Of a stretch of DNA of 64,000 nucleotides, positions 5,038 through 63,800 are shown piece after piece. The position numbers were made by a program, and so were the translations under genes. Under the pieces are notes generated by a model. That model did not search any database. It was not told the DNA's origin and saw only the letters and a list, made by a program, of their open reading frames with translations. The DNA comes from a virus. The stretch covers positions 62,001 through 126,000 of the IMG/VR virus record IMGVR_UViG_3300050821_010764. The stretch is one strand, 5' to 3'. Each line of letters begins with the position of its first letter. Within the stretch, counting starts at the first letter, position 1.

Positions 5038-5802
5038 ATGAAACTACGAGAATTGCTTCAACAAATGAAGGAAGTGCAAGAGACTATAGGGACTTCTGAG
5101 CCCTATATCTGTGGAGGCACGCCTAGAGATAGATACTTGAAGCACTTAGAAAATATCTCGGATTTAGATATTACTACCGGTGACAAAACAGTAGATTATC
5201 TATCACAAGAATTTGCAGAGGCTCTTAAAAAACAATACAACATTACTAGAAGAACAATGGATGATGGTCACAGCACCATCTACATTGGTTCCTTTAAAAT
5301 GGATTTCTCTTCTAATTTTAATGTTCCTGGCATTGATGCTATCCTCGCCAAAACGGGGATTGCCAAGCCCACGGAAATACAAAAAGAAATGTTCAGCAGG
5401 GATTTTACCTGTAATGCTCTTCTTCTATCTTTGGACCTAAAAGAGTTAATTGATCCAACTCATAAAGGATTTAAAGATATGAATGAGAGAATGATTCGCA
5501 CCTGCTTGGCTCCTGAGATTACTTTGACTACCAACAGGAATAGAGTGATTAGAGCTATTTATTTGGCGTCTAAACTAGATTTTGATGTTGATCCTCGCCT
5601 CATTGAGTATGTTAGAAAAAATCCTCAGACTGTCAGAATCTCTACCGAAAAAGCCATGTCTGAGAAATTGAATGAAGCTTTCAATCGAGATGCTGATAAG
5701 GCTAGTAGTCTTATTACTAAAATGGGATTATGGAACTACATCCCAATTACTGAAGTAGTTTATCCATATTATATGAAACATAAGGGTTCCAATGGGAAAT
5801 AA
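5038..5802 (+). CDS. CCA-adding/poly(A)-polymerase-like nucleotidyltransferase, short form
   Basis: Member of the class II tRNA nucleotidyltransferase/poly(A) polymerase superfamily, which adds nucleotides to RNA 3' ends using two metal-binding aspartates. Visible signatures in order: GGTPRDRYL then SDLDIT (motif A, with the DxD pair near residues 41-43), RDFTCNALLLS then LIDPTHKGFKDM (motif B and its beta hairpin), and NRNRVIRAIYLASKLDFDVD (motif C-like). At 254 residues it has the head/neck but lacks most of the body and tail of full CCA enzymes, which usually exceed 380 residues. Two ATGs are near the start; the one at 5038 is in frame. The window encodes a second, full-length homologue on the minus strand at 32.5-33.8 kb. 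Substrate unknown. Confidence 0.85.
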   Translation: MKLRELLQQMKEVQETIGTSEPYICGGTPRDRYLKHLENISDLDITTGDKTVDYLSQEFAEALKKQYNITRRTMDDGHSTIYIGSFKMDFSSNFNVPGIDAILAKTGIAKPTEIQKEMFSRDFTCNALLLSLDLKELIDPTHKGFKDMNERMIRTCLAPEITLTTNRNRVIRAIYLASKLDFDVDPRLIEYVRKNPQTVRISTEKAMSEKLNEAFNRDADKASSLITKMGLWNYIPITEVVYPYYMKHKGSNGK

Positions 5803-6886
5803 ACGAGCTTATTTTCAAGGAGGTGGTGGTGTCAATGAACCAACTCCGGGCGAAAAGAAATACAAATCAGACCCAGCCATTGTGGTACAGCCTCGTTTTG
5901 AAGAGGTGTTCTATCGCAATTATGACCTCTACGAAGTGCCTGGTTTCGAGCACATTGGTCCAGGGGCTGGTTGGCACGCCCTACAAAATTATAACTCGGT
6001 TGGGGAATTTCTAGAAGCCCGCAGGAAGAGACTCGCCCCTCGCTACGTGGCTGATGACTCTTGGCAGTTGGATAGTGGGAAGCGCACCAAAGAAAATCCC
6101 GGAATTAAAGCTAGAGCAGCCTTGCTAAACAGAATAATCAAAACGGCATCAAACTGTGGATTCTGTGGAAAATCTAAAATCGATGTAACTTTTCCTTGTG
6201 AACATTGTGGCAAAGGTGGAGCTGTTGTTGCGGGTGACGAGAATAATGGACCCAATTTTGATTATGGTAAAGGCTTGTACTCCAATATGAATAAGTATAA
6301 AAGTGTCCAAGATTTTGAAGAACATGCTGATAAAGGTCCTGGAGCTTTTTTTGCTGATGACAACGAAGACCATATGATGCCGCCTAAAGAGCATGGCACT
6401 AAAATCTACGATTGGAAAAACAGTATTTATCAAGGAACGCCTAAAGCTACTAAACGACACGACTCTAATAATATAGATTTCCTAGCTGATCAATATATTG
6501 ATCCAAATATTGTAACACCAGAACCTGGTGACGTAGATGGTGGCAATCCAGTAGGAGAGGCTAATCAAATGGGAGGATATTTAGATGAATATCTTCCAGA
6601 AAAAGATTTTGAGGGCAAAGATCCGGATACTCTGGATTTTGGTAGGGATTACTCTGGCAGTGACCAGTTTCCTAGCAAAAAAGACTTTGCTCCGGCGACC
6701 ATTGACCAAGAGTCTGTCAAAAAACTAATAGACAAATACTCTCCTGCACCTACTTCTGGGCTGTACGGTTTGCCTGATGGTGTGGATTTGCCGGAGGAAG
6801 ACCTTGGGAATCCAACGGATATTAATCCAGATTATGGCTCAGTGGGTCCAGAAAGTAAGATGTACGAAGATAAATGGAACATTTAA
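5792..6886 (+). CDS. NEPTPG-motif protein with zinc knuckle, 364 aa
   Basis: ATG 5792 overlaps the upstream stop by 11 bases. The extreme N-terminus (residues 7-20) is YFQGGGGVNEPTPG, nearly identical to a segment of the protease-scaffold protein at 18.1-21.7 kb (GYYQGAGGVNEPTPG). A CxxC-x10-CxxC knuckle (C122, C125, C136, C139) probably binds zinc. The remainder is rich in Asp, Gly, Pro and Tyr with few hydrophobic stretches and looks extended or disordered (YLDEYLPEKDFEGKDPDT). No catalytic motif is apparent. The shared N-terminal motif suggests a head-assembly partner or a segment recognised by the same factor. Function otherwise unknown. Confidence 0.75.
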   Translation: MGNKRAYFQGGGGVNEPTPGEKKYKSDPAIVVQPRFEEVFYRNYDLYEVPGFEHIGPGAGWHALQNYNSVGEFLEARRKRLAPRYVADDSWQLDSGKRTKENPGIKARAALLNRIIKTASNCGFCGKSKIDVTFPCEHCGKGGAVVAGDENNGPNFDYGKGLYSNMNKYKSVQDFEEHADKGPGAFFADDNEDHMMPPKEHGTKIYDWKNSIYQGTPKATKRHDSNNIDFLADQYIDPNIVTPEPGDVDGGNPVGEANQMGGYLDEYLPEKDFEGKDPDTLDFGRDYSGSDQFPSKKDFAPATIDQESVKKLIDKYSPAPTSGLYGLPDGVDLPEEDLGNPTDINPDYGSVGPESKMYEDKWNI

Positions 6887-16399: not shown

Positions 16400-17173
16400 A
16401 TGATACACAGGCTTCGCAAGGTAACTGACCAACTGTATCGAGGGAGCGCTCCGTCTCCCAAGGATGTTCTTTGGTTGAAAGAAAATTTAGGCATTAAAAA
16501 AATAGTCAGTTTAGATAAAATAGCCGGTGATAGAATTGATAGGACTACTAAGTTATTGGGTATCAAACATATTATATGTCCTATTGGTCATCCTAATTTT
16601 AAACACTCTCTATTGCATTTTCTGAAACATGATTTAAAAGAGTTATTGTTAGAAGGCGGACCCACTTATGTTCATTGTCAGGCTGGTAAAGATAGAACTG
16701 GATTAGCAGTAGCTTTAGTTCAATGTAAATATCTAGGTAAAAGTCCAGAAGACGCTTTAGAAGAAGCTAAGTCTTTGGGATTTGGTTTGGATGTTGACCC
16801 TAAGCCTATTCATGTTTTTGAGAAGCTAATTAAGGCTTGCAAGCCAGCCAAAGACAAAGATACTAATCATGCTGATATAGTTTCAAACGAACGAGAATAC
16901 ATTAGTGATAATCGAGACTCGTTTTTGGATGAGGGACATCAGGGTTCTTTTGCGCCTTATTTGAATGTTACTCGTCAGAATCCGCAAGATGCTCTTTACA
17001 ATTTTGTGGTTGATCAATCTCCAACCCGTGAGAATTATCACCATGGCAAGCCAATAAAAGAGCATGAATCTCAAGAGGAAGACGTTGTGCCTATGGTCGG
17101 CGTTTACGATAATGATGCGGGTGGCAGAGGCTTTGGACCTGCGGAAAACAATGGTGGATTCATTTATGATTAA
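16400..17173 (+). CDS. Cysteine-based protein/lipid phosphatase (HCxxGKDRTG)
   Basis: Carries the P-loop VHCQAGKDRTG (C93 nucleophile, R99), the hallmark of cysteine-dependent tyrosine, dual-specificity and phosphoinositide phosphatases. The lysine and aspartate inside the loop resemble the MptpB-like bacterial group and, partly, PTEN. The N-terminal half shows the expected fold: LYRGSAPSPKDVLWLKENLGIKKIVSLD, then IKHIICPIGHP ahead of the active site. Residues after about 160 are Asp/Asn/Gly-rich and probably extended. Phages seldom carry such enzymes in a head-gene run. It could act on phosphorylated host proteins or lipids, or be packaged. It overlaps the next gene by 8 bases. Confidence 0.85.
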   Translation: MIHRLRKVTDQLYRGSAPSPKDVLWLKENLGIKKIVSLDKIAGDRIDRTTKLLGIKHIICPIGHPNFKHSLLHFLKHDLKELLLEGGPTYVHCQAGKDRTGLAVALVQCKYLGKSPEDALEEAKSLGFGLDVDPKPIHVFEKLIKACKPAKDKDTNHADIVSNEREYISDNRDSFLDEGHQGSFAPYLNVTRQNPQDALYNFVVDQSPTRENYHHGKPIKEHESQEEDVVPMVGVYDNDAGGRGFGPAENNGGFIYD

Positions 17174-18095: not shown

Positions 18096-21000
18096 ATGAC
18101 ATTTATTAAACTAGGCGAAGCACAGGAGATTAAGTTAGAGAGCATGGATTCGTGCCTCCCTGCTGTGAGTCCTGAAATTCTAGAGAACTTTAGGAAGTTT
18201 GCAATCAATCTTAAGAAGGTTGCCCCTAAAGCAGAAGACTTTTTATATTTCTCTGCTGTTATGATGCATGCTGCTGAAGCAGCCGCCCTCAATGACGACG
18301 GGACTCCTAAGCTAACGGCTAGAGGAGAGACGGTAGAAGTAGGTTGGGATAAATCTGGTGGTACTTATCGCTGGATGAGCAACGACTCTAGTGTTAAACC
18401 CTATAAGAATTCTAATGGAGATATATTTCCAGAGGAAGAACTGGTAAAAGCATATAAGAAGTGGGTGGGTAAGCCTCTTTGCGTGGATCATAAATCGAGT
18501 TCGGTTGACCATGTAAGAGGCTTTATTGTTGATACCTACTATGATCGTAATCTTAAGAGAGTTATAGCTTTATGTGCTTTAGATAAGGCTGGATATCCTC
18601 AATTAGCAAGACAAATCTCCACTGGAGTTTCTAGCTGCGTGTCCATGGGTACCGCTGTTGGAAGAGCAATTTGCACCGATTGTGCCCGAGTCGCCCGCAC
18701 GGAACAAGACTTCTGTGACCATATGCGCCGCAAGAGCTGCTATGGTGAAATTAACGTAGATTTAAATCCACTTGAATTATCCATTGTTGTTAACGGAGCC
18801 GATCCAAAGGCTAATATCAAGCATATTATTGCTGCCGCTAACACCCTTAATACTTATGTCGAGAACAAACAAAAGGAACTCGACAAGCTAGCAGACTTGA
18901 CTTACTCAGCTACTTTGACTGTAAATGACCCTCAAGGACATGAAGGTGGAAATAGCACACAAGTTACAGTCAATGCGACGGACCTTGCTAAATTCAAAGA
19001 AGACGTCGAGGCAGCTTTTCAGAAATTGAGTGAAATTAAAAATTCTGGAAAAGATACTACTAATGATACGGCATCTAATCAAGAGCTAGGTACTGTGATA
19101 CCAGCCGCTGATTCTGGATTGGCTCCCCCACACGCAAGATATGCATCCGCTGAAGTAGGGGTGGATCCTATTGCTGAACTTCATGAGGTTACTAGAACCA
19201 TTGAAGCCAAGCTGAGCCAAATGAAACAAAGCTTGGACAAGTTAGCAAACACTTCTACTACAAACAAACAAGAGGAAAATATGTCTGGATCAAATGAAAC
19301 TGTAAAAAAGGGTTATTACCAAGGCGCCGGTGGCGTTAATGAGCCTACCCCTGGTCAGGCAAAATATCCAAAGGATCCTCTTCAAGAGCATCTCCGTGAA
19401 AAAGAGGATAAACAAATGGTGGGTCAACCTCCATTTCCAGATGTAGGACCAGTCGATGGTATGCATCCATCCCCAGAATCTGCTGACCAGTCTAATGAGT
19501 TAGAGCGTAAAAAGATGCTTGCTCGTGCTGAGTCTGAAGAGAGAGCCCAACGTCGTCAAGCGATTGTTGATTTAGCTAAGAGAACTATTGAAAACAAAAA
19601 AACCGCTTGGTTTCAAAATGGTGATGGCAACAACCCAGGAACCCCAACTCCAGGTAAACCAAAATACCCAGTTGATAAACTAGAGTATGTACTTCGTGAA
19701 CACGAAGATAAGCAGATGGTTGGACAGAAGCCTTTCCCAGGTGTTGGTCCAGTTGATGGTCTTCATCCATCTCCACAATCCGCTGACACCTCTGATGAGT
19801 TAAAGCGTAAGGAAATGCTACGTAGAGCTGGTTTAATAGCCAGATTCGTTCGTGCTTCCAATAATGATGGTACTGCCAATCTAGGTAATAGTGCTTGGGA
19901 AGTTTATCTTGGTGACAAGCTACTTCTTACTGCCTCTGTCAATGAACTATCTGGTGGACGTGCTGAAGTATTACATGACAGCATTGCAACCCGTGAATTC
20001 GGTGGCAAACTAATTGAGAAGATTAAGACTCATGGTGCAGACAAGATTCGCTCCTTAGTAAAGAGTGGACAACCAGCTCCAGGCGGTGCTCCTCCAGCTC
20101 CAGGCGGTGACGCAGGCGCTCCACCAGCAGGTGGCGATGCCGGTCCTCCAGCCGAAGATACTGGTAAATCCGGTGATCCAAAAGATCAAGCTCTTGCATT
20201 AGCAGAGAAGGGTGTCGAGCTTAGCTCCGACCTTAACGAAGCAGTCAAGGCTATGGTCGGTGAGAAATCCGAAATGGGCGATATGGAAGGCGGACCAGCA
20301 GCAGCTCCAGAAATGGGTGCTTCAGCCTCCTTTAGTACACAAACACTCAACAATTTGAGGAAGGAACTTAATGGCGCGCTAACTCACGCTATGCAAGAAT
20401 CCATTGCTTCCATTAACGATCATGTTGAAGAACTTAATATGATTTCTGGATTATATGATAAGGGCGCAGTAACTGACTCTAACCAAGAGTTCGTTGGCTC
20501 TATCGTTGAAGATGCACTAAGCGAAGCCAAGACTGCAATTGCAGATGGTTTCAAATTGATGAGCGCATTTGTGAAGTACGCCCGTGGTACTACTGCCATC
20601 GTCAAGCGTGCAGAAATCGAGGCAGAACTAGAGGCATTAGCTGAGGGAGAGACTATGACAGGCGAACAAGACGCCAACAATGGCGATGATTTAATGGCTA
20701 TGATCAGCGATACCAATTCAGATTTGGATGCTATCCATGGTCTTATGGCAGATGACAACGCTCATGCCGGCGAAGAGCCACATGACGAGGCACTAGAGGG
20801 CTTACTAGACATGCCAGCAGATGATGCAAATGATCTTAAAGCCGGTGATTTGAAGCCAGAAACTATGCTAGACCCAGCAATGATGTCTCATGCATCTTTT
20901 GATACCAAAGAAGGTCGTCAAGCAATGAGAGCCAAGCTAGCCGCTGACGCTCTTGGCAAGCAAGACGACGGAGAAATCTCCGATATGTCTAAGCAAAAGT

Positions 21001-21662
21001 TTAGCGACATGCTAGACCAAGCTGACAAGCTTACTGATGGTCAAACTGACTTGGATACCAAGCCATCTGACAATCTAGGATATGTTGAAACTCTTCCAGA
21101 AGTTAACAAGGCTATGATGGATCTTGCAAAAGCTCCACCAAAGGTCCGTAAGGAAGCAGAAGCTATCCATAACCTAATCTCTGAAGGCAAGCTTCACCCA
21201 TCCGACCTAGACGCTCTAGTAGCAGAAGGTTTGGATAAGGATGCAGTAGCTTACTACAAGAAGTACTGGGCTCAGACTGAAGGTGGCGGAGAATTCGCCA
21301 GTGAATTGGTCAAGGAGCACGTCAAGGCAGACCTTGAGGCAGAACTTAACAAGTACAGAGTAAAGCTAGGACGTTCTTACGAACTAGCATATGACATGGT
21401 TGACCGTGGTTTGTGTCACCACGACAGAAACGCAGTTTCTGCCCAGGTAGATGAAATCATGAAGTTCAATGACGAGTCTTTCGATTCTCTAAAGAGAGTT
21501 GTTGCAAGACACCCAGTAACCAACCTTCGTAAGGAAGGTGGAAGAATGCCACAAGTTGGTATGATCGGTTCTGGTGACCTAAGCACCACACCACAGTCTG
21601 ATGGTGATATGTTTGCACAATTGTCGGCAGCATTTTCTAAGACTTCCAAGAGAAGTTTCTAA
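18096..21662 (+). CDS. Putative capsid maturation protease fused to scaffold, 1188 aa
   Basis: The N-terminal ~260 residues resemble a prohead-protease domain of large phages: GKPLCVDHKSSSVDHVRGFIVD (H132 a candidate catalytic His), then RQISTGVSSCVSMGTAV with candidate Ser residues (about 174-185), a CxxC...C...C cluster (193-215) and NVDLNPLELSIVVNGADPKA. The following ~900 residues look like scaffold: helical, acidic, with two copies of an NEPTPG/DKQMVGQ repeat (about 405-470 and 505-570), a Pro/Gly linker (about 655-690) and long helices. Proteases of this kind cleave scaffold and capsid proteins during maturation. It sits between portal and major capsid genes as expected. Protease identity is inferred from motif layout and context. 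Confidence 0.6.
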   Translation: MTFIKLGEAQEIKLESMDSCLPAVSPEILENFRKFAINLKKVAPKAEDFLYFSAVMMHAAEAAALNDDGTPKLTARGETVEVGWDKSGGTYRWMSNDSSVKPYKNSNGDIFPEEELVKAYKKWVGKPLCVDHKSSSVDHVRGFIVDTYYDRNLKRVIALCALDKAGYPQLARQISTGVSSCVSMGTAVGRAICTDCARVARTEQDFCDHMRRKSCYGEINVDLNPLELSIVVNGADPKANIKHIIAAANTLNTYVENKQKELDKLADLTYSATLTVNDPQGHEGGNSTQVTVNATDLAKFKEDVEAAFQKLSEIKNSGKDTTNDTASNQELGTVIPAADSGLAPPHARYASAEVGVDPIAELHEVTRTIEAKLSQMKQSLDKLANTSTTNKQEENMSGSNETVKKGYYQGAGGVNEPTPGQAKYPKDPLQEHLREKEDKQMVGQPPFPDVGPVDGMHPSPESADQSNELERKKMLARAESEERAQRRQAIVDLAKRTIENKKTAWFQNGDGNNPGTPTPGKPKYPVDKLEYVLREHEDKQMVGQKPFPGVGPVDGLHPSPQSADTSDELKRKEMLRRAGLIARFVRASNNDGTANLGNSAWEVYLGDKLLLTASVNELSGGRAEVLHDSIATREFGGKLIEKIKTHGADKIRSLVKSGQPAPGGAPPAPGGDAGAPPAGGDAGPPAEDTGKSGDPKDQALALAEKGVELSSDLNEAVKAMVGEKSEMGDMEGGPAAAPEMGASASFSTQTLNNLRKELNGALTHAMQESIASINDHVEELNMISGLYDKGAVTDSNQEFVGSIVEDALSEAKTAIADGFKLMSAFVKYARGTTAIVKRAEIEAELEALAEGETMTGEQDANNGDDLMAMISDTNSDLDAIHGLMADDNAHAGEEPHDEALEGLLDMPADDANDLKAGDLKPETMLDPAMMSHASFDTKEGRQAMRAKLAADALGKQDDGEISDMSKQKFSDMLDQADKLTDGQTDLDTKPSDNLGYVETLPEVNKAMMDLAKAPPKVRKEAEAIHNLISEGKLHPSDLDALVAEGLDKDAVAYYKKYWAQTEGGGEFASELVKEHVKADLEAELNKYRVKLGRSYELAYDMVDRGLCHHDRNAVSAQVDEIMKFNDESFDSLKRVVARHPVTNLRKEGGRMPQVGMIGSGDLSTTPQSDGDMFAQLSAAFSKTSKRSF
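19281..21662 (+). CDS. Nested in-frame scaffold product (internal start), 793 aa
   Basis: Inside the protease-scaffold gene, ATG 19281 (codon 396, in frame) is preceded by AGAGGA at ideal spacing, the same site used by the next two genes. It falls just after the protease-like part. The product would begin MSGSNETVKKGYYQGAGG, placing the NEPTPG motif near its N-terminus exactly as in the separate 5792 gene. This mirrors known phage arrangements such as lambda C/Nu3, where scaffold is translated from an internal start of the protease gene. Expression is inferred from sequence only. Confidence 0.55.
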   Translation: MSGSNETVKKGYYQGAGGVNEPTPGQAKYPKDPLQEHLREKEDKQMVGQPPFPDVGPVDGMHPSPESADQSNELERKKMLARAESEERAQRRQAIVDLAKRTIENKKTAWFQNGDGNNPGTPTPGKPKYPVDKLEYVLREHEDKQMVGQKPFPGVGPVDGLHPSPQSADTSDELKRKEMLRRAGLIARFVRASNNDGTANLGNSAWEVYLGDKLLLTASVNELSGGRAEVLHDSIATREFGGKLIEKIKTHGADKIRSLVKSGQPAPGGAPPAPGGDAGAPPAGGDAGPPAEDTGKSGDPKDQALALAEKGVELSSDLNEAVKAMVGEKSEMGDMEGGPAAAPEMGASASFSTQTLNNLRKELNGALTHAMQESIASINDHVEELNMISGLYDKGAVTDSNQEFVGSIVEDALSEAKTAIADGFKLMSAFVKYARGTTAIVKRAEIEAELEALAEGETMTGEQDANNGDDLMAMISDTNSDLDAIHGLMADDNAHAGEEPHDEALEGLLDMPADDANDLKAGDLKPETMLDPAMMSHASFDTKEGRQAMRAKLAADALGKQDDGEISDMSKQKFSDMLDQADKLTDGQTDLDTKPSDNLGYVETLPEVNKAMMDLAKAPPKVRKEAEAIHNLISEGKLHPSDLDALVAEGLDKDAVAYYKKYWAQTEGGGEFASELVKEHVKADLEAELNKYRVKLGRSYELAYDMVDRGLCHHDRNAVSAQVDEIMKFNDESFDSLKRVVARHPVTNLRKEGGRMPQVGMIGSGDLSTTPQSDGDMFAQLSAAFSKTSKRSF
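19309..19815 (+). repeat. Two-copy protein repeat in the scaffold region
   Basis: Two units, from about 19309 and about 19608, encode the same order of motifs: aromatic-Q-Gly-rich start, PTPGxxKYPxD, LREhEDKQMVGQ, PFPxVGPVDG, HPSP and SAD...EL.RKxML.RA. The units are separated by a ~35-residue helix. Conserved Pro and Gly positions suggest a repeated binding peptide and not a globular domain. Confidence 0.8.
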
Positions 21663-21688: not shown

Positions 21689-22573
21689 ATGACTAATAAA
21701 AGTGTATCAGATTTTGTCGCTGCAACCATGGATGCAGTACTAAAGAGCGCAGAGCACAAGGCTTTGTTCGGCACCCAATACAAATATGCTTCGGATGAAA
21801 ACGATGCAAAGTGTTCAAAGTGTGGCAAGGATGCTTGCTCATGCGGTGACACCGGTATGGCAGATGACAATGAAGCAAAAAAGAAGATGCCACCTTGGCT
21901 AAAAGATAAGAGTGACTCTGCTAGTGCGGACGATCAAGATGCCAAGAAAAAGAAAGACTCTTCTGGTGATTCTTCCAGTGCTTGGGATGACAACGATGCT
22001 CGTAAGAAGAAGGATTCTTCCTCTTCCAGCAGCGATTCAGCCAGCGCTTGGGATGACAATGACGCCCGTAAAAAGAAGGACTCCTCTGGTGATTCTTCTA
22101 GTGCAGATGATAACGATGCTCGCAAAAAGAAGGAAGAATCTTCTAGCTCCAGCGATTCTTCTAGCGCAGATGATTTGGAAACTTCCGCAGCATTTGATGT
22201 TGCTATCGACAGCCTATTGACTGCTTCCGCAGCTCTTGACTCTGTCGGTATGGAAAAGTCTTCTGCATTCAGTTTGAAGCTTGCTTCTTTGGTTGTTGAA
22301 GCCAAGAAGAAGGACAAGGATTCTAAGAAGAGCAAGAGCGATTCTAACGATGCTAAGGATAAAGCCAAGGCAAAGAAAGAAAAAGAGCTAGCCGCCGAAA
22401 AGAAGAAGAAAGAAAAAGAGAAGGCTGATGCTCAATCCGCTAAGGATAAGGCTGCCAAGGAAAAAGAGAAGGAAAAGGCTAAAGCAAAAGCAGATAAAGA
22501 CAAGGCTGATGCTCAAGCTGCTAAAGATAAAGCTTCCAAAGAGAAGGCAAAATCATCTTCTTCTAAGAAGTAA
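21689..22573 (+). CDS. Ser/Asp/Lys repeat protein, low complexity, 294 aa
   Basis: Start ATG 21689 follows AGAGGA. The N-terminus is ordered (VSDFVAATMDAVLKSAEHKALFG) and followed by a small Cys cluster (KCSKCGKDACSCGD, four Cys, possible zinc site). Next come four to five imperfect repeats of DDNDARKKKDSS/GDSSSA (about residues 80-162), then a helical hairpin unit (AIDSLLTASAALDSVGMEKS), and finally a ~85-residue Lys/Ala-rich tail (KEKEKAKAKADKDKADAQ) resembling histone H1-like tails. The strong charge suggests DNA or scaffold contact inside the prohead. It sits between scaffold and capsid genes. No family recognised. Confidence 0.75.
   Translation: MTNKSVSDFVAATMDAVLKSAEHKALFGTQYKYASDENDAKCSKCGKDACSCGDTGMADDNEAKKKMPPWLKDKSDSASADDQDAKKKKDSSGDSSSAWDDNDARKKKDSSSSSSDSASAWDDNDARKKKDSSGDSSSADDNDARKKKEESSSSSDSSSADDLETSAAFDVAIDSLLTASAALDSVGMEKSSAFSLKLASLVVEAKKKDKDSKKSKSDSNDAKDKAKAKKEKELAAEKKKKEKEKADAQSAKDKAAKEKEKEKAKAKADKDKADAQAAKDKASKEKAKSSSSKK
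21928..22176 (+). repeat. Tandem repeats encoding DDNDARKKKDSS units
   Basis: Imperfect in-frame repeats of roughly 60 bases encode alternating acidic (DDNDA), basic (RKKK) and Ser-rich blocks, at least four copies. They create spurious long ORFs in other frames. Copies differ mainly in the length of the serine run and by a tryptophan before DDNDA in two of them. Confidence 0.8.
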
Positions 22574-31341: not shown

Positions 31342-31454
31342 GTTAGTTGCTTAAATAATTCAAGCGTTTCGTGGATTAACTTTCACAAAACGCTCTATCA
31401 CACGCAAGTGTGTCGCTGGTAAGACTGGCAAATAATTCCACTAGGAGACGATTT
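31342..31454 (+). promoter_or_regulatory. Structured leader of the major capsid gene
   Basis: The 113-base gap holds two hairpins. One pairs AGCGTTT (31363-31369) with AAACGCT (31388-31394), with an inner GTG/CAC extension. The second pairs CACAC (31399-31403) with GTGTG (31408-31412) around a stable GCAA tetraloop. Neither is followed by a T-run, so they are not ordinary terminators; mRNA stabilisation or processing of the capsid transcript is more likely. An AGGAGA ribosome site follows at 31443. Confidence 0.55.
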
Positions 31455-32468
31455 ATGAATATGTTTAGCAACCAAGGCCAAATGAATGCCTCATCCCTTA
31501 AGGATGCACTACAAACTCTTGTTAAGTATGCAGCCGTTCTTGAAGAGAACACTCCATCTAACATGGGTCTTGCAGGACAAACTGCCCTAAGTGATGATAA
31601 GCGCGATGAATTGATTTCTCGCGCTATTATGACTCAAGATGGCAAGATTGCTCTAGCTCAGGCTATGGCAAACCCAATCCGTAGAAACTTGGATTACCAC
31701 GGTATCGCACGTCGTGCCTTGGTCGTTGACCCACTACCACAAGGTGCAATGCCAACTTACGATAGAGATATCGATGTTGCTGCTGTTGTTATCTCAAGCA
31801 ACGGTACTGGTCCAGAGTCCAGAGTATTCGGCGACAGAGTTGTCGTTCCAGAATTCGAAATCTATGCAAACCCAACGGTGAGAATCGCTGAAGTTAAGAG
31901 ACGTAGATTTAACGTAATTGACAGAGCAGTTCAGAAGGCTCGTCAAGAAATCATGGCTCAGGAAGATGCTAACATCTTCGCAGCTCTTGATGCAGCAGCT
32001 TCTGTTGAAAACGTCCTAACCGACATCGCAGATGCAGGTCTTCTAAAGAGAGACCTTGTCGAAATCAAGCAACAAATTGATCGTTGGGACTTAGTTACTA
32101 CTAAGTACTTCATGAACATCAATGAGTTCACTGATATCCTTAAGTGGGGTTCAGGTGGTGGACAAGGCGTAGGCGGCGGAGATTTCGATCCTGTCACTAT
32201 GAGAGAAGTTCTACAAACTGGTCTTTACGCCCACATCTGGGGTACTGACATCATGGTTTCCAAGATCGTTCCACCAGGAACCATCTACGGTGCCGCAGAC
32301 CCTGAGTTCGTTGGTGTTATGCCAATCAGACAGGACATTGAAGTGCTACCAGCAGACGAGCCAAAGCAATTGAAGCTTGGATGGGTAGTTTCCGAGATCA
32401 TCGGTATTGCTATCGTTAACCCACGTGGTTGCGCAGCAGGTCGTAAGTCTGTCGTAATCGGAGCCTAA
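31455..32468 (+). CDS. Major capsid protein
   Basis: The shell-forming protein. ATG 31455 is chosen because AGGAGA precedes it at good spacing; the frame extends back to 31410 but that start lies within the leader hairpins. 337 residues. The N-terminal ~60 residues may be a delta-domain removed at maturation (helical, MNASSLKDALQTLVKYAAVL). The HK97-like body shows RRNLDYHGIARRALVVDPLPQGAMPTYDRDI, a possible E-loop, FEIYANPTVRIAEVKRRRFN and a long spine helix (VIDRAVQKARQEIMAQED), and ends IIGIAIVNPRGC. The position after protease/scaffold, high-expression codon choice and strong terminator support the call; sequence identity was not searched. Confidence 0.8.
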   Translation: MNMFSNQGQMNASSLKDALQTLVKYAAVLEENTPSNMGLAGQTALSDDKRDELISRAIMTQDGKIALAQAMANPIRRNLDYHGIARRALVVDPLPQGAMPTYDRDIDVAAVVISSNGTGPESRVFGDRVVVPEFEIYANPTVRIAEVKRRRFNVIDRAVQKARQEIMAQEDANIFAALDAAASVENVLTDIADAGLLKRDLVEIKQQIDRWDLVTTKYFMNINEFTDILKWGSGGGQGVGGGDFDPVTMREVLQTGLYAHIWGTDIMVSKIVPPGTIYGAADPEFVGVMPIRQDIEVLPADEPKQLKLGWVVSEIIGIAIVNPRGCAAGRKSVVIGA

Positions 32469-32531: not shown

Positions 32532-33773
32532 CTACTGTCCTGCCGCGAAGTCCAGCAAGAAGCTCTTGTTATTGTTGTCCGGATTTCTCAGAATTTCCAA
32601 ATAACAAGCTTCCAAAATGGATTTAATTTGCGGTCCCGGCTTGATGCCGATAACCAGCAAATCGTCTCCATTTAATTGCATTTCGCGCTTGGCGAAGACA
32701 GTTTCGCTAACGTATTTGCCGAACTGCACCCTAGAGTTGATTTCCATAGCCTCAGTCAATCGTATAAATTGGTCAAAGGTATAGTCCCAGGGGTCAGGGG
32801 CATGGTTCTTAATGACCGCCATAAAGCTCTTATAAGCCAAAGGCGTGTCCTTCTTAAGGAATTCATTATACCTGTCCAAAAGGCTCAGTAAGAAAGTGAC
32901 TCTTTTGATTTCTTTATTAGGAAACTTTAAGAATAACAGTTCTGCCTGTACCTGTTCGACTGGGCACATGCCATACATAAATGCCAAGCGAGTTTCTAGT
33001 TCCTCTTGACATTTATCTAAGAAGGGCAAGAAGTGCATATAGACATCTCGGCTACAGAGGAATGGACAAGCCACTGCCAATGCACCCGATTGTTGAAGCA
33101 GTTGAATCCCATACGAAGGATCCTTCGTCATCAAGGTTTTGCACAACTCATCTTGAATACGTTCCTTGGAAACCTTCTTCAAGGTTTCAAGGCTGCTTTT
33201 CATTCCAGTAAAAGTAGGAGATTCCACCGCATAACCAAAACGAGCGGCGAATCGTGCAACTCGCATGATTCGGAGTCCGTCTTCTTGGAATCTAGTTTCT
33301 GGATTTCCAACTGCTCGAATAATTCCTTTGTGTAGGTCTTCTAATCCACCATAAGGATCGACTAAACGATCTGCAATAGGGTCGTAGGCGATAGCGTTGA
33401 TGGTCAAGTCTCGTCTTGCCAAGTCTTGTTCCACATTGAGCACAAAGAAGACTTCTTCTGGACGTCGTCCGTCCTTGTATTCTCCTTCGATGCGAAAGGT
33501 GGTAACTTCGAAATGATTTTCGACACCTGGACCCATCACTACCGTGACAGTTCCGTGCTGCAAACCCGTGGGAATGGTCTTAGGAAATAATCCAATGACT
33601 TCTTGCGGGCTAGCATCCGTGGTAATATCCCAATCCTTGGGGGTTTGACCAAGCAGTAAGTCGCGCACACACCCACCTACGATGAAGGCTTGGTAACCTT
33701 CCGCGCTCAGGACGCGGCACACCTCGAAAGCTTGAGGATTGACGTGTTGTTGCGAAATTTGTACGTTTAGCAT
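32532..33773 (-). CDS. cca: CCA-adding enzyme (tRNA nucleotidyltransferase), full length
   Basis: Class II CCA-adding enzyme that builds or repairs the CCA 3' end of tRNAs. Visible motifs: motif A GGCVRDLLLGQTPKDWDI (D47 and D49 metal ligands, residues 33-50), HGTVTVVM, motif B RRDLTINAIAYD, LVDPYGGLEDLHKGIIRAVG, and motif C FQEDGLRIMRVARFAARFGY, followed by SKERIQDELCKTL. At 413 residues it has the full head-neck-body-tail length. It is the only minus-strand gene for many kb, faces the capsid gene across a bidirectional terminator, and is visibly richer in G+C than its neighbours, suggesting acquisition from a bacterium. A second shorter homologue sits at 5038. Confidence 0.93.
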   Translation of the reverse strand: MLNVQISQQHVNPQAFEVCRVLSAEGYQAFIVGGCVRDLLLGQTPKDWDITTDASPQEVIGLFPKTIPTGLQHGTVTVVMGPGVENHFEVTTFRIEGEYKDGRRPEEVFFVLNVEQDLARRDLTINAIAYDPIADRLVDPYGGLEDLHKGIIRAVGNPETRFQEDGLRIMRVARFAARFGYAVESPTFTGMKSSLETLKKVSKERIQDELCKTLMTKDPSYGIQLLQQSGALAVACPFLCSRDVYMHFLPFLDKCQEELETRLAFMYGMCPVEQVQAELLFLKFPNKEIKRVTFLLSLLDRYNEFLKKDTPLAYKSFMAVIKNHAPDPWDYTFDQFIRLTEAMEINSRVQFGKYVSETVFAKREMQLNGDDLLVIGIKPGPQIKSILEACYLEILRNPDNNNKSFLLDFAAGQ

Positions 33774-60800: not shown

Positions 60801-63800
60801 CAATAATGAAATTCTCACCATTCCATTTACTAGAGAGTTGTATTTCTCAGTAGACTTCCCAATCAATTGGGCATTGTGTATTAATTCTATTGGTGAATTA
60901 GTCACTATTCCATTAACAGATTTTGATTCTGTTTTGGGCACTCCTAATGATCCTACTAGGCTAGTAGTTCTAAAAAATGTTATTTCTAATACTACCTATA
61001 CGGTGGATTCAACTACATTTGCCAATCTTCTAAATAATAGAAAAGATTTGACCATACTGTATATTGTAGCTTCGACTGTCTCTATGACGCCAACGGTCTC
61101 ACTATCTGTTAAAGATGTAAGAAGATATGTAAATGATCAAGACTCCAATATCCCGGCAGTAGTTACCGATGACAACTCACAGGGTAACTTTAAAAACTTT
61201 GTATCGGCTGCGACATGGATCAAACTAGATAACAAATTTCAAAATACCATTCAAATTAAGGGAAGTCAATTTGCAACTGTAGATCCCGGTTTCTCAGCCG
61301 GTAATAGTGTCAATATCGTAGGTGGTGGAGTTGGAGCCATACTTACTTTTAATACTAATGTAGTGATGTTTAATGTGAATTTCAAAGATTTAGAAATTCA
61401 TTTTCTTGGAAACACGACTCTAACTAATGTTAATTTTGATAACTGTGTAGTTTACAATGGTGGACCATCTCATAATTTCACGGCTACTAACTGTATTCTA
61501 AACAGATGTACTATTACAGTTGATGGAACCGCAACTCTTACTAATGTGTTAATCAATAAATCTACTGCAACTTTCGAGAGCACTATTATTGCAAATACCA
61601 CCAGATTTACTGATAGCATATTAACCTTCCTAATTGGTGGAACTTTTACTAATGTAATCATCGATCCATCTACGATAACGATTGGTGGAACGATTACCAT
61701 CAATTCTTCTGCTACTATTACCGATTCGACTATCCTAGTTACTACCGTCCAAGCTTTTGTAATAAGCAATCTTTTCAGATTTGAAAGAAATCAAGTTACC
61801 TATACGGGAGCCCCAGGTGGAGGATATGACACCACCGATCTAGTTAATGCAGGTGGAGGCATGATTTATGCCAGTGTAGGAGCCAACTTATCAGATGTTA
61901 TTGTCAGAGATAATACATTCACTACGGCTCTGACCGATAGATTCTCCTTTTTCAGTTTGCAACTAACTAGCTTCTCTTCTGTTATTGAAAATATTGATGT
62001 TTCCAAAAACAAGTTTATTTCTACAGCTATGGTAGATGATTTGAGAGCAGTTATCTCAATTGTATCTACTCTGACTGCACCAGCTAGTCCGGGCGCCTAT
62101 CCAAGATCTCCTAAATTAGTCAATGTATTTATTGATGGTAATATGTGCAACGCTAATCAGATGATTGTTGTATCTGTCCAGCGTACTCCGGGCGTGGTTG
62201 CTATCACTGGAGGCATGTTAACTACTACCAGTACAAAGATTTCTAATAACACCTGTGGTACCATTGGATTTATCACGGCAGCAGCTTCCGCTTCCGATTT
62301 CTCTAACGTTACCTCTCCAAATATTGGATTGATACAAGATAAATCAGATCAATTAGTCATCAGTGGTAATGCTTGCAAGTTTATTGCTAATCTTGATTTT
62401 AGAGGCGATTATATTCCATTCAGAAGTACAGCATATCCAGGAAACAATATTGACTTTGTTGCAACTGGTACCGGCGCTTTCAGCATCTACAATAACACTG
62501 TCAATTGGATTCAAGTTGGTTGCAGCGCTTATACTGTGCTAAATGACGGTGGCATCATCACTAGCAATAGAGTGTCTCCCGCTAATCCTGCCTATTTAAA
62601 CAACTTTACCGACGCATTAGTTAGCGGTGTTACACCGGGCAATGTAGGCATTTTGTTAAGAAGAGAATTTAACGGTACTGGCACTACTCGTAGCATTATT
62701 GCCAATAACATAATTGTTCAGAAGAATCTATTTAATACTGTTGGTACCGCCGTTAGCTATTATTATGATGCGGCTTTGGTCTGTTTCAACAGTGCCAATA
62801 TTACTGGCAACTCTATCATTGGCGTAGTCAACACCCTAACTAACCCACTATCTCCGTTCTCTACTATATTGTATTTGGGACCATCAGGTAATATGATTGT
62901 TTCAGGTAATAATTTGGATAGAGCTGGTTTAGGAATTCAATCTTATGTAGCTACAGCGCCTGGTGCGGTCAACCAAGTCTCTGTTACGAATAACATTTTC
63001 GATAGCCAATTTATTGATGTAGCTAATACTATCGAAACGGTGGGGGTTAATATTCCTTCTGCATGGTCATTCCGCAATAATAGAAATCAGATTTTCTATA
63101 AAGAAATATCTTTGGTAGATGACTCTTTTGGTTTAGATGGTCTTTTTGGGGCAGGAGTACAAAACAACTCTTATCCAGCACATACTCAGCTAACTCTTTT
63201 TGCCGACCAAAGAACTGGTGCTGACGGTTTTATTACTGTTTTTAGACAAATTGGTCCGGCTAGCTATACAGAAATAGCTTCTGATCATTTTATTCAAGTA
63301 CAAGATTTCGGTCAAGGCGCAAGCCATACATTTGGCTGGACTAAGCGTGGGGCAATTGATCCTTACTTGCCAGATAATGTTAGAATTTTGAACGCTAGAA
63401 TTGGATATTTTGAAAGTACTTGGAATAGCGTTAATGCTTTGGATTACAATGCCGCCCCTGCTTATAACGTTGCTACTTTAACTATGTTCAGGTACAAAGA
63501 TTCGACAACTTCAAATGATCCTCTCAATGGAGTATTGAATGTTAGAGACCAAATAACGGCTCATGCAGGAAGTTTTGGAAATGATAATTCTGTTTTTGAT
63601 AACGTAGCCGCCTCTCATCATATTACATCTGCTGGTGATGAAACCAATATTAGAACAAATACCGTTATTATCACTGCCGATTTAACTGCTCATGATTTTA
63701 CTACCAATCAAAATTACAGAATAGGTTATTCGTTAGAACAAAACTTTAAAAAAGCAGCTCCCACAGATGGCAACTTCGTCTTTTTTGATTGGTCTCCAAT

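Follow-up and report, generated by a model that had tools for sequence, protein, structure and literature searches.

The window analysed here comprises 64,000 nucleotides (nt) of the IMG/VR virus record IMGVR_UViG_3300050821_010764 (positions 62,001 to 126,000 of that record). Unless stated otherwise, positions are those of the window and features lie on the plus strand. The window carries an open reading frame (ORF) at 18096-21662, 1188 codons long with no stop, whose product of 1188 amino acids (aa) is a putative fusion of a head protease with a scaffold. The initial annotation had proposed that this ORF holds a second, internal start, and the letters of the window confirm its elements: an in-frame ATG at 19281-19283 (codon 396) is preceded by AGAGGA at 19271-19276, a candidate internal ribosome-binding site that ends four bases 5′ of the ATG. 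Initiation there would give a nested product of 793 aa (19281-21662), acidic (isoelectric point, pI, 4.86) and predicted to consist mostly of helices, which could be the scaffold alone.

The same annotation held that this ribosome site is the one used by the next genes. GAGG or AGAGGA is indeed found at 21689, 22836 and 24082, but not at all neighbours, a Shine-Dalgarno match of at least 4 being present at 15 of the 22 gene starts examined around the ORF. The ORF contains 38 internal in-frame ATGs. Over the window's record, a Shine-Dalgarno match of at least 4 at suitable spacing accompanies 64% of first ATGs (n=104) and 17% of in-frame internal ones (n=725). Because such sites are that common at internal ATGs, a single genome makes a weak case for an internal start; it is the comparison across relatives that makes the case strong.

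Conservation of the internal start

Scanning IMG/VR with the window ORF gave 80 loci, with best-segment identities of 43 to 100%. In each of them the match is held within one ORF, some of these being cut by contig ends. The internal site is covered by 78 loci (all except L069 and L071), which correspond to 61 distinct contexts, including the window's own sequence (L001, 100% identity). The ATG is present in 61 of 61 contexts. GAGG, AGGA or GGAG lies within 18 nt of it in 59, and AAGG only in two, L063 and L074, which are gapped at the aligned Met and carry their ATG a few residues further on. Clustering at 85% identity, from which the window's own sequence was excluded, left 55 representatives, and start codon and ribosome site occur together in all 53 that have a residue in the Met column. 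The runner-up among internal starts, at codon 854, has a ribosome site in 36 of 53.

Two more scans were seeded with divergent members. Exclusion of loci with a 400-base stretch in common with the first set left 23 ORFs. Of these, L191 and L193 stop short of the site and L178, which has the length and position of L179, was left out, giving 20 additional loci in 18 distinct contexts (L196 and L198 share one, as do L158 and L174). In all 20 the ATG has a tetramer resembling a ribosome site within 18 nt of it, the spacing being scored loosely and wide (about 10) in L175. In several of these loci the residues before the Met differ (KDEQ, KDEK, KETQ, RETT or EDIDK, the KDEQ variant coming from TAAGGATGAACAA and the KETQ variant from TAAGGAGACACAA), and the DNA reads TAAGGA, AAGGAG, AAGG or GAGGA. 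The linker around the internal ATG also varies in residues and in length among relatives. Since the residues change and the ribosome site stays, it is the ribosome site that is kept and not the peptide. Homologues lacking the ATG and ribosome site, for which the initial annotation had advised looking, were encountered neither among the 61 contexts nor among the 20 further loci.

Selection on the ribosome-binding site and openness of the RNA

In the 50 representatives that have Glu-Glu before the internal Met, this pair is encoded by GAG-GAA in 50 of 50. At all other Glu-Glu pairs of these ORFs, GAGGAA is found in 50 of 490, GAG accounting for 24% of Glu codons, and the five most populated control Glu-Glu columns give 5/41, 0/40, 7/39, 0/21 and 2/21. 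Codons 382-400, which flank the ATG on either side, show an excess of synonymous conservation (z 3 to 4) comparable to that at the annotated start at 18096 (z 3.3). This use of synonymous codons indicates that the ribosome site itself is under selection.

The RNA is also open at this position. In 40 representatives, the mean folding energy over 60 nt is -2.8 kcal/mol at the internal ATG, compared with -6.0 at the first Met and -10.2 (standard deviation, sd, 4.0) over 8750 control windows; 2.0% of these windows are equally open. Among the ORF positions sampled, every fourth codon from codon 20, the internal ATG is the least folded. As shown by these comparisons between related sequences, the internal ribosome site and its ATG are kept by selection at the nucleotide level.

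These observations bear on two other explanations. A ribosome-site-like sequence present by chance and left unused, for which the 17% of internal in-frame ATGs carrying one in this record could be invoked, is scarcely credible in view of the 53/53 conservation, the fixed synonymous codons and the open RNA. It is also most improbable, though slightly less so, that Glu-Glu-x-Met is an autocleavage site freeing the protease from the scaffold, with no second start. Indeed, while T4-type prohead proteases cut after Glu and Glu-Glu is frequent at the site, its synonymous codons are fixed, distant loci lose Glu-Glu and keep the ribosome site, and the Met codon is ATG in every one of the 61 contexts, in open RNA.

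The N-terminal part resembles prohead proteases

Residues 105-212 (18408-18731) form the core of a probable prohead, or head maturation, protease. They align with phrog_18299, a family of head maturation proteases (E=1.1e-13), and the N-terminal part matches phage G gp19 with 33% identity over 224 columns (E=1e-31). The top phrog match is phrog_2774 (E=2.2e-17), whose function is unannotated and which includes fusion proteins of actinobacteriophages. His132 (18489-18491) and Ser183 (18642-18644), the latter within VSMG, are invariant in 43 of 43 clade sequences and in an 8-sequence alignment that includes phage G, five actinobacteriophages and a Vibrio phage; they are the probable catalytic residues. 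The protease part also contains a CxxC...CxH cluster (Cys193, Cys196, Cys207 and His209; 18672-18722), a possible metal site, in which the three Cys are invariant and the His is at least 90% conserved in the 43 clade sequences, and which is aligned in all 8.

The AlphaFold model of this part is modest (predicted local distance difference test, pLDDT, 62.5), and Foldseek returned no match to it at E≤0.001. With VIA-align, two structures tie at the top with Z 5.0, the varicella-zoster protease (1vzv; root-mean-square deviation, rmsd, 3.1 over 104 aligned residues) and T4 gp21 (5jbl_A; rmsd 4.2 over 116 aligned); this Z falls in the range of common arrangements, though the top matches are of the expected family. 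Searching the sequences of solved structures with the N-terminal part gave a designed coiled coil alone (E=0.041), and no ClpP/SppA-type Pfam match was found in the fusion ORF at E≤0.1, an absence that is not proof. Altogether, assignment of the N-terminal part as a prohead protease is supported by sequence similarity.

Properties of the nested product

Considering its position, composition and predicted helices, the 793-aa product is a good candidate for a scaffold. Its structural model shows long helices and one small alpha/beta domain (mean pLDDT 61.2, predicted template modelling score, pTM, 0.28). No scaffold or other known family was matched by the nested part in Pfam, in phrog or among the sequences of solved structures at E≤0.1, and a Foldseek search of the viral and PDB libraries with its model had no match at E≤0.001. 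Phage G gp21 appeared in that search at rank 17 with E=0.27 and was not counted as evidence.

The C-terminal helical domain (residues 1082-1150; 21339-21545) recurs in another ORF of the same record, at G000:C1:52048-52254 (E=6e-12). It also aligns, with moderate support, with residues 279-333 of phage G gp21 (hhalign E=1.7e-4, probability 49%, 55 columns; BLASTP E=0.005).

A short sequence tag, YYQGAGGVNEPTPG (19314-19355), starts 11 residues after the internal Met, and a similar one, MGNKRAYFQGGGGVNEPTPG, opens a separate gene at 5792-6886. The initial annotation had described the two N-termini as beginning in exactly the same way. A similar segment does lie near both, but the two are not identical, and a second, diverged copy of the tag, AWFQNGDGNNPGTPTPG (19605-19655), is internal to the nested product. 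A tag that follows the internal ATG and opens separate genes speaks for the internal start; because of the second copy, we regard it as supportive and not decisive. Among 16 loci scanned for homologues of gene 5792, that gene included, 13 have a tag-bearing ORF (L101, L109 and L110 have no tag by the expression used), and 12 of these 13 have it among the first 30 residues of the open frame. The tag is internal in L100, and L103 has no in-frame Met before it. Elsewhere in the record the tag was found in gene 5792 alone, two short-ORF matches to the loose expression looking like chance.

Within the nested part, the ATG of codon 854 (20655-20657), preceded by GGAG, is a weaker candidate for a second internal start. 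The ATG is present in 41 of 53 representatives, and in 36 of 53 together with a ribosome site; the codon for Gly851 is GGA in 39 of the 41 representatives having Gly, and codons 851-855 are under synonymous constraint (z=3.4). On these sequence features, a third product starting at codon 854 is possible.

A similar arrangement in actinobacteriophages

Nine actinobacteriophages, namely Myrna (gp97), Alice (gp90), Phrappuccino (gp53), Rhodococcus phage E3 (gp77), Finch (gp17), Stormageddon (gp13), Skog, Pupper and Tonenili, encode the protease fused to a long extension, with a total length of 852 to 1511 aa by annotation. In eight of the nine, the fusion gene is followed by one small gene (hypothetical or structural) and then by the capsid gene; the stretch from Alice ends inside the fusion gene, so that the downstream order covers the other eight. 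In the MAFFT alignment, seven of the nine share an internal Met, which is residue 1114 in Alice gp90 and residue 799 in Myrna gp97; AAGGA, GAGGA or AGGAG stands before it in 7/7. In the Met column Phrappuccino has a Lys and Finch a gap; for these two and for the IMG/VR relatives L124 and L125, an internal Met with a ribosome site was placed by eye. L126 is a repeat of L125, and L127, which is cut at its start and stands outside the set of 11, has the same ATG and ribosome site. Among the other in-frame ATGs of the 11 actinobacteriophage-type ORFs, 17 of 200 have such a site. Folding at the internal ATG is more open than the ORF mean in 11/11, 3 to 20% of control windows being as open.

The annotations of these proteins range from hypothetical protein to prohead or capsid maturation protease, tape measure and LysM-like endolysin, and none of the actinobacteriophage stretches examined has an annotated internal start. 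The labels 'tape measure' (Myrna gp97, L091) and 'LysM-like endolysin' (Skog, L117), borne by head protease fusions, look like misannotations.

The genomic order in these phages is relevant to the nature of the nested protein. It is unlikely that the internal start is real and that the nested product is a permanent internal head protein or an ejected protein instead of a scaffold that is removed. The tag and the C-terminal domain occur in other phage proteins, as in a co-packaged core set, and no scaffold family was matched; both points agree with such a protein. Its fusion to a prohead protease, its acidic and helical make-up, and the position of the fusion gene just before one small gene and the capsid gene in eight of nine actinobacteriophages argue instead for an assembly scaffold.

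The protease part of several relatives is interrupted by insertions. Intein-like insertions are found at L039:6001-8352, L041:6004-8289, L061:5986-8337 and L057:3736-5412, each with Intein_splicing, Hom_end_hint or LAGLIDADG above the Pfam cut-off. LAGLIDADG occurs in three of the four and is missing from the short insertion of L057. An intein-like sequence was also seen in L200, in translation only. In Alice and Tonenili the inserted stretch is like L5 gp82, and in Myrna it is like a tape measure protein. Every insertion found in these relatives, whether intein or not, sits 5′ of the internal ATG; the nested product would therefore need no splicing, and the full-length protease would need it at the inteins.

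A conserved motif in the linker

About 230 nt before the internal start, at 19053-19082, the variable linker contains a motif conserved at the nucleotide level, with the consensus GATACTAATGATNTNGCATNTAATCAATCGTCGGG in relatives. It has the highest excess of synonymous conservation in the ORF (z 5.3). Of the 55 representatives, 42 show the motif pattern, which lies 207-252 nt before the ATG in 37 of them. One copy each was found in 10 of 12 records searched; the two without a match are G010 and the window's own, whose copy is more diverged. No RNA fold was detected for the motif over 29 sequences, no sigma-70-like match falls on it, and no copy of it was observed in distant relatives retaining the ribosome site. 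The number of sigma-70-like matches in the region, 10 against 7.5 (sd 2.4), shows no clear excess. An overlapping gene in the +1 frame was rejected: the frame closes after 1 to 60 codons and the ATG is missing in several loci.

The nested protein might also have an mRNA of its own, transcribed from a promoter that lies within the ORF and includes this motif, an arrangement compatible with an internal ribosome site. The strength of the synonymous constraint, the distance of 207-252 nt to the ATG in 37 of 42 representatives and the lack of an RNA fold, which suits a DNA site, speak for it. Yet with at most one copy per record (12 searched) the motif is not a repeated phage promoter, sigma-70-like matches are neither on it nor enriched around it, and distant relatives keep the ribosome site without it. 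The motif was thus rejected as an identified promoter, being single-copy and without a sigma-70-like match, and an internal promoter is retained as a rival of low probability. The motif could bear on either this alternative or that of a retained head protein.

Genomic setting

The major capsid protein of the same module is encoded at 31410-32468. It is a homologue of phage G gp27 (PDB 6wkk, E=4.3e-96) and matches the major head protein family phrog_2522 (E=1.3e-77). Compared with gp27 it has about 58 extra N-terminal residues, and part of this extension, SLKDALQTLVKYA, is found again in the ORF with the second copy of the scaffold's C-terminal domain (G000:C1, about 52 kilobases, kb; L082). 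It is perhaps a shared core-assembly segment.

For the whole ORF and seven nearby proteins, Pfam gave, besides the terminase, weak matches below the cut-offs alone. Directly after the fusion gene, 21689-22573 encodes a low-complexity Ser/Asp/Lys repeat protein. Upstream of the protease gene, the protein encoded at 16400-17173 contains HCQAGKDRTG, which we take to be a protein-tyrosine or dual-specificity phosphatase signature. The region is mostly plus-strand, and a minus-strand gene (32532-33773) lies directly after the capsid gene; its product presumably resembles, by motif, a CCA-adding enzyme or a poly(A) polymerase.

Proposed expression of the fusion gene

The initial annotation's lambda-like reading of this gene finds support in the conservation of the site, in the synonymous codons and in the protease matches, the role of scaffold following from indirect arguments. 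We consider it quite probable that ORF 18096-21662 gives, from one mRNA and in one frame, both a protease-scaffold fusion and the scaffold alone. Initiation at 18096 would produce the long form, in which a prohead protease is joined to a large scaffold (1188 aa), and initiation at 19281, through the internal ribosome site, the scaffold alone (793 aa). Through the C-terminal part common to both, a limited number of protease copies would be brought into the head core, there to cut the scaffold and other core proteins at a later stage. We infer synthesis of both products, with an excess of the short one, which would be the assembly scaffold.

Several observations weigh against this proposal. Kinship among the loci is one: at 55% identity they cluster into 6 groups, of which 4 are aligned at the site (3 with GAGGAA and 1 with GAGGAT). 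In L074, AAGG lies 3 nt from the first candidate ATG and fits a second ATG two codons on better. Synonymous constraint in the ORF peaks at the linker motif (z 5.3), away from the start site, and codons 337-343 likewise rank high. The role of scaffold is deduced from the context, the acidic composition, helix predictions and a resemblance to phage G gp21; the match to gp21 spans 55 columns only, and gp21 itself is not annotated as a scaffold. The capsid gene lies about 10 kb downstream of the fusion gene, with several genes between. As for the actinobacteriophages, 4 of their 11 sites were picked from lists already filtered for a ribosome site, and no homology is detectable between their nested parts and those of the window's clade (hhalign E=0.31). 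What the two sets have in common is therefore the same arrangement, and not proven common ancestry.

A broader proposal can be made more tentatively. An internal-start protease/scaffold gene, annotated as one protein, may be the rule in a broad lineage of large-headed phages that would comprise the window's clade (contigs up to about 480 kb) and actinobacteriophages, including many mycobacteriophages of the Alice and Myrna kind. Such a gene might have been fused from separate genes like those of phage G, keeping the ribosome site of the scaffold gene. To this the window's clade might add a third product from codon 854 and a single-copy control element in the linker, some 230 nt upstream, by which scaffold synthesis is set or autoregulated. 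Taken jointly, these suppositions are more doubtful than not.

Scaffolds are the usual setters of capsid size, and none is annotated in the phage G and actinobacteriophage stretches examined. Our results bear on how very large-headed phages set the size of their capsids: they name a candidate scaffold with its exact N-terminus and suggest a means of setting the ratio of protease to scaffold. The head of phage G is given as T=52 in a section of PMC5646251. The prediction extends to laboratory mycobacteriophages. The results also show that an annotation of one long protein probably hides two products.

Comparison with known systems

In lambda, an internal in-frame start in the C/Nu3 gene yields the scaffold, and the C protease belongs to the ClpP/SppA type. 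According to PMC8508860, which cites Shaw and Murialdo (1980), one gene specifies both protease and scaffold in P2 and in lambda. The internal-start trick is known from lambda C/Nu3. The gene described here likewise joins a protease and a putative scaffold and has an internal in-frame start. It differs in that protease and scaffold are apparently unrelated to those of lambda, in that the nested product reaches 793 aa, and in that the relatives of the protease are phage G gp19 and the actinobacteriophage proteases, with a weak fold likeness to T4 gp21 and herpesvirus proteases. What appears to be new, within the literature searchable, is the comparative case together with the clade, the protease family and the 793-aa product. 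Neither an internal start nor a nested scaffold in these phages was found in titles and abstract openings; subscription literature is little covered there, so that an earlier description is possible.

The herpesvirus UL26/UL26.5 genes encode an N-terminal protease followed by a C-terminal scaffold, the scaffold also being made alone from a separate internal transcript. The layout, protease then putative scaffold here, is the same, and the varicella-zoster protease is one of the two structures tied as best in VIA-align (Z 5.0). The means differ, a separate internal transcript in herpesviruses and a conserved internal ribosome site here.

Bacillus phage G has homologues of the protease (gp19) and of the capsid protein (gp27), and its gp21 appears to share the 55-column C-terminal domain. 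There, however, the protease gp19 (300 aa), gp20 and gp21 are encoded by separate genes, ahead of the decoration protein gp26 and the capsid protein gp27. Finally, while their nested part is not detectably homologous to that of the window's clade, the actinobacteriophages have the same protease core, a long C-terminal extension, the capsid gene two genes on in eight of nine, and an internal ATG with its ribosome site.

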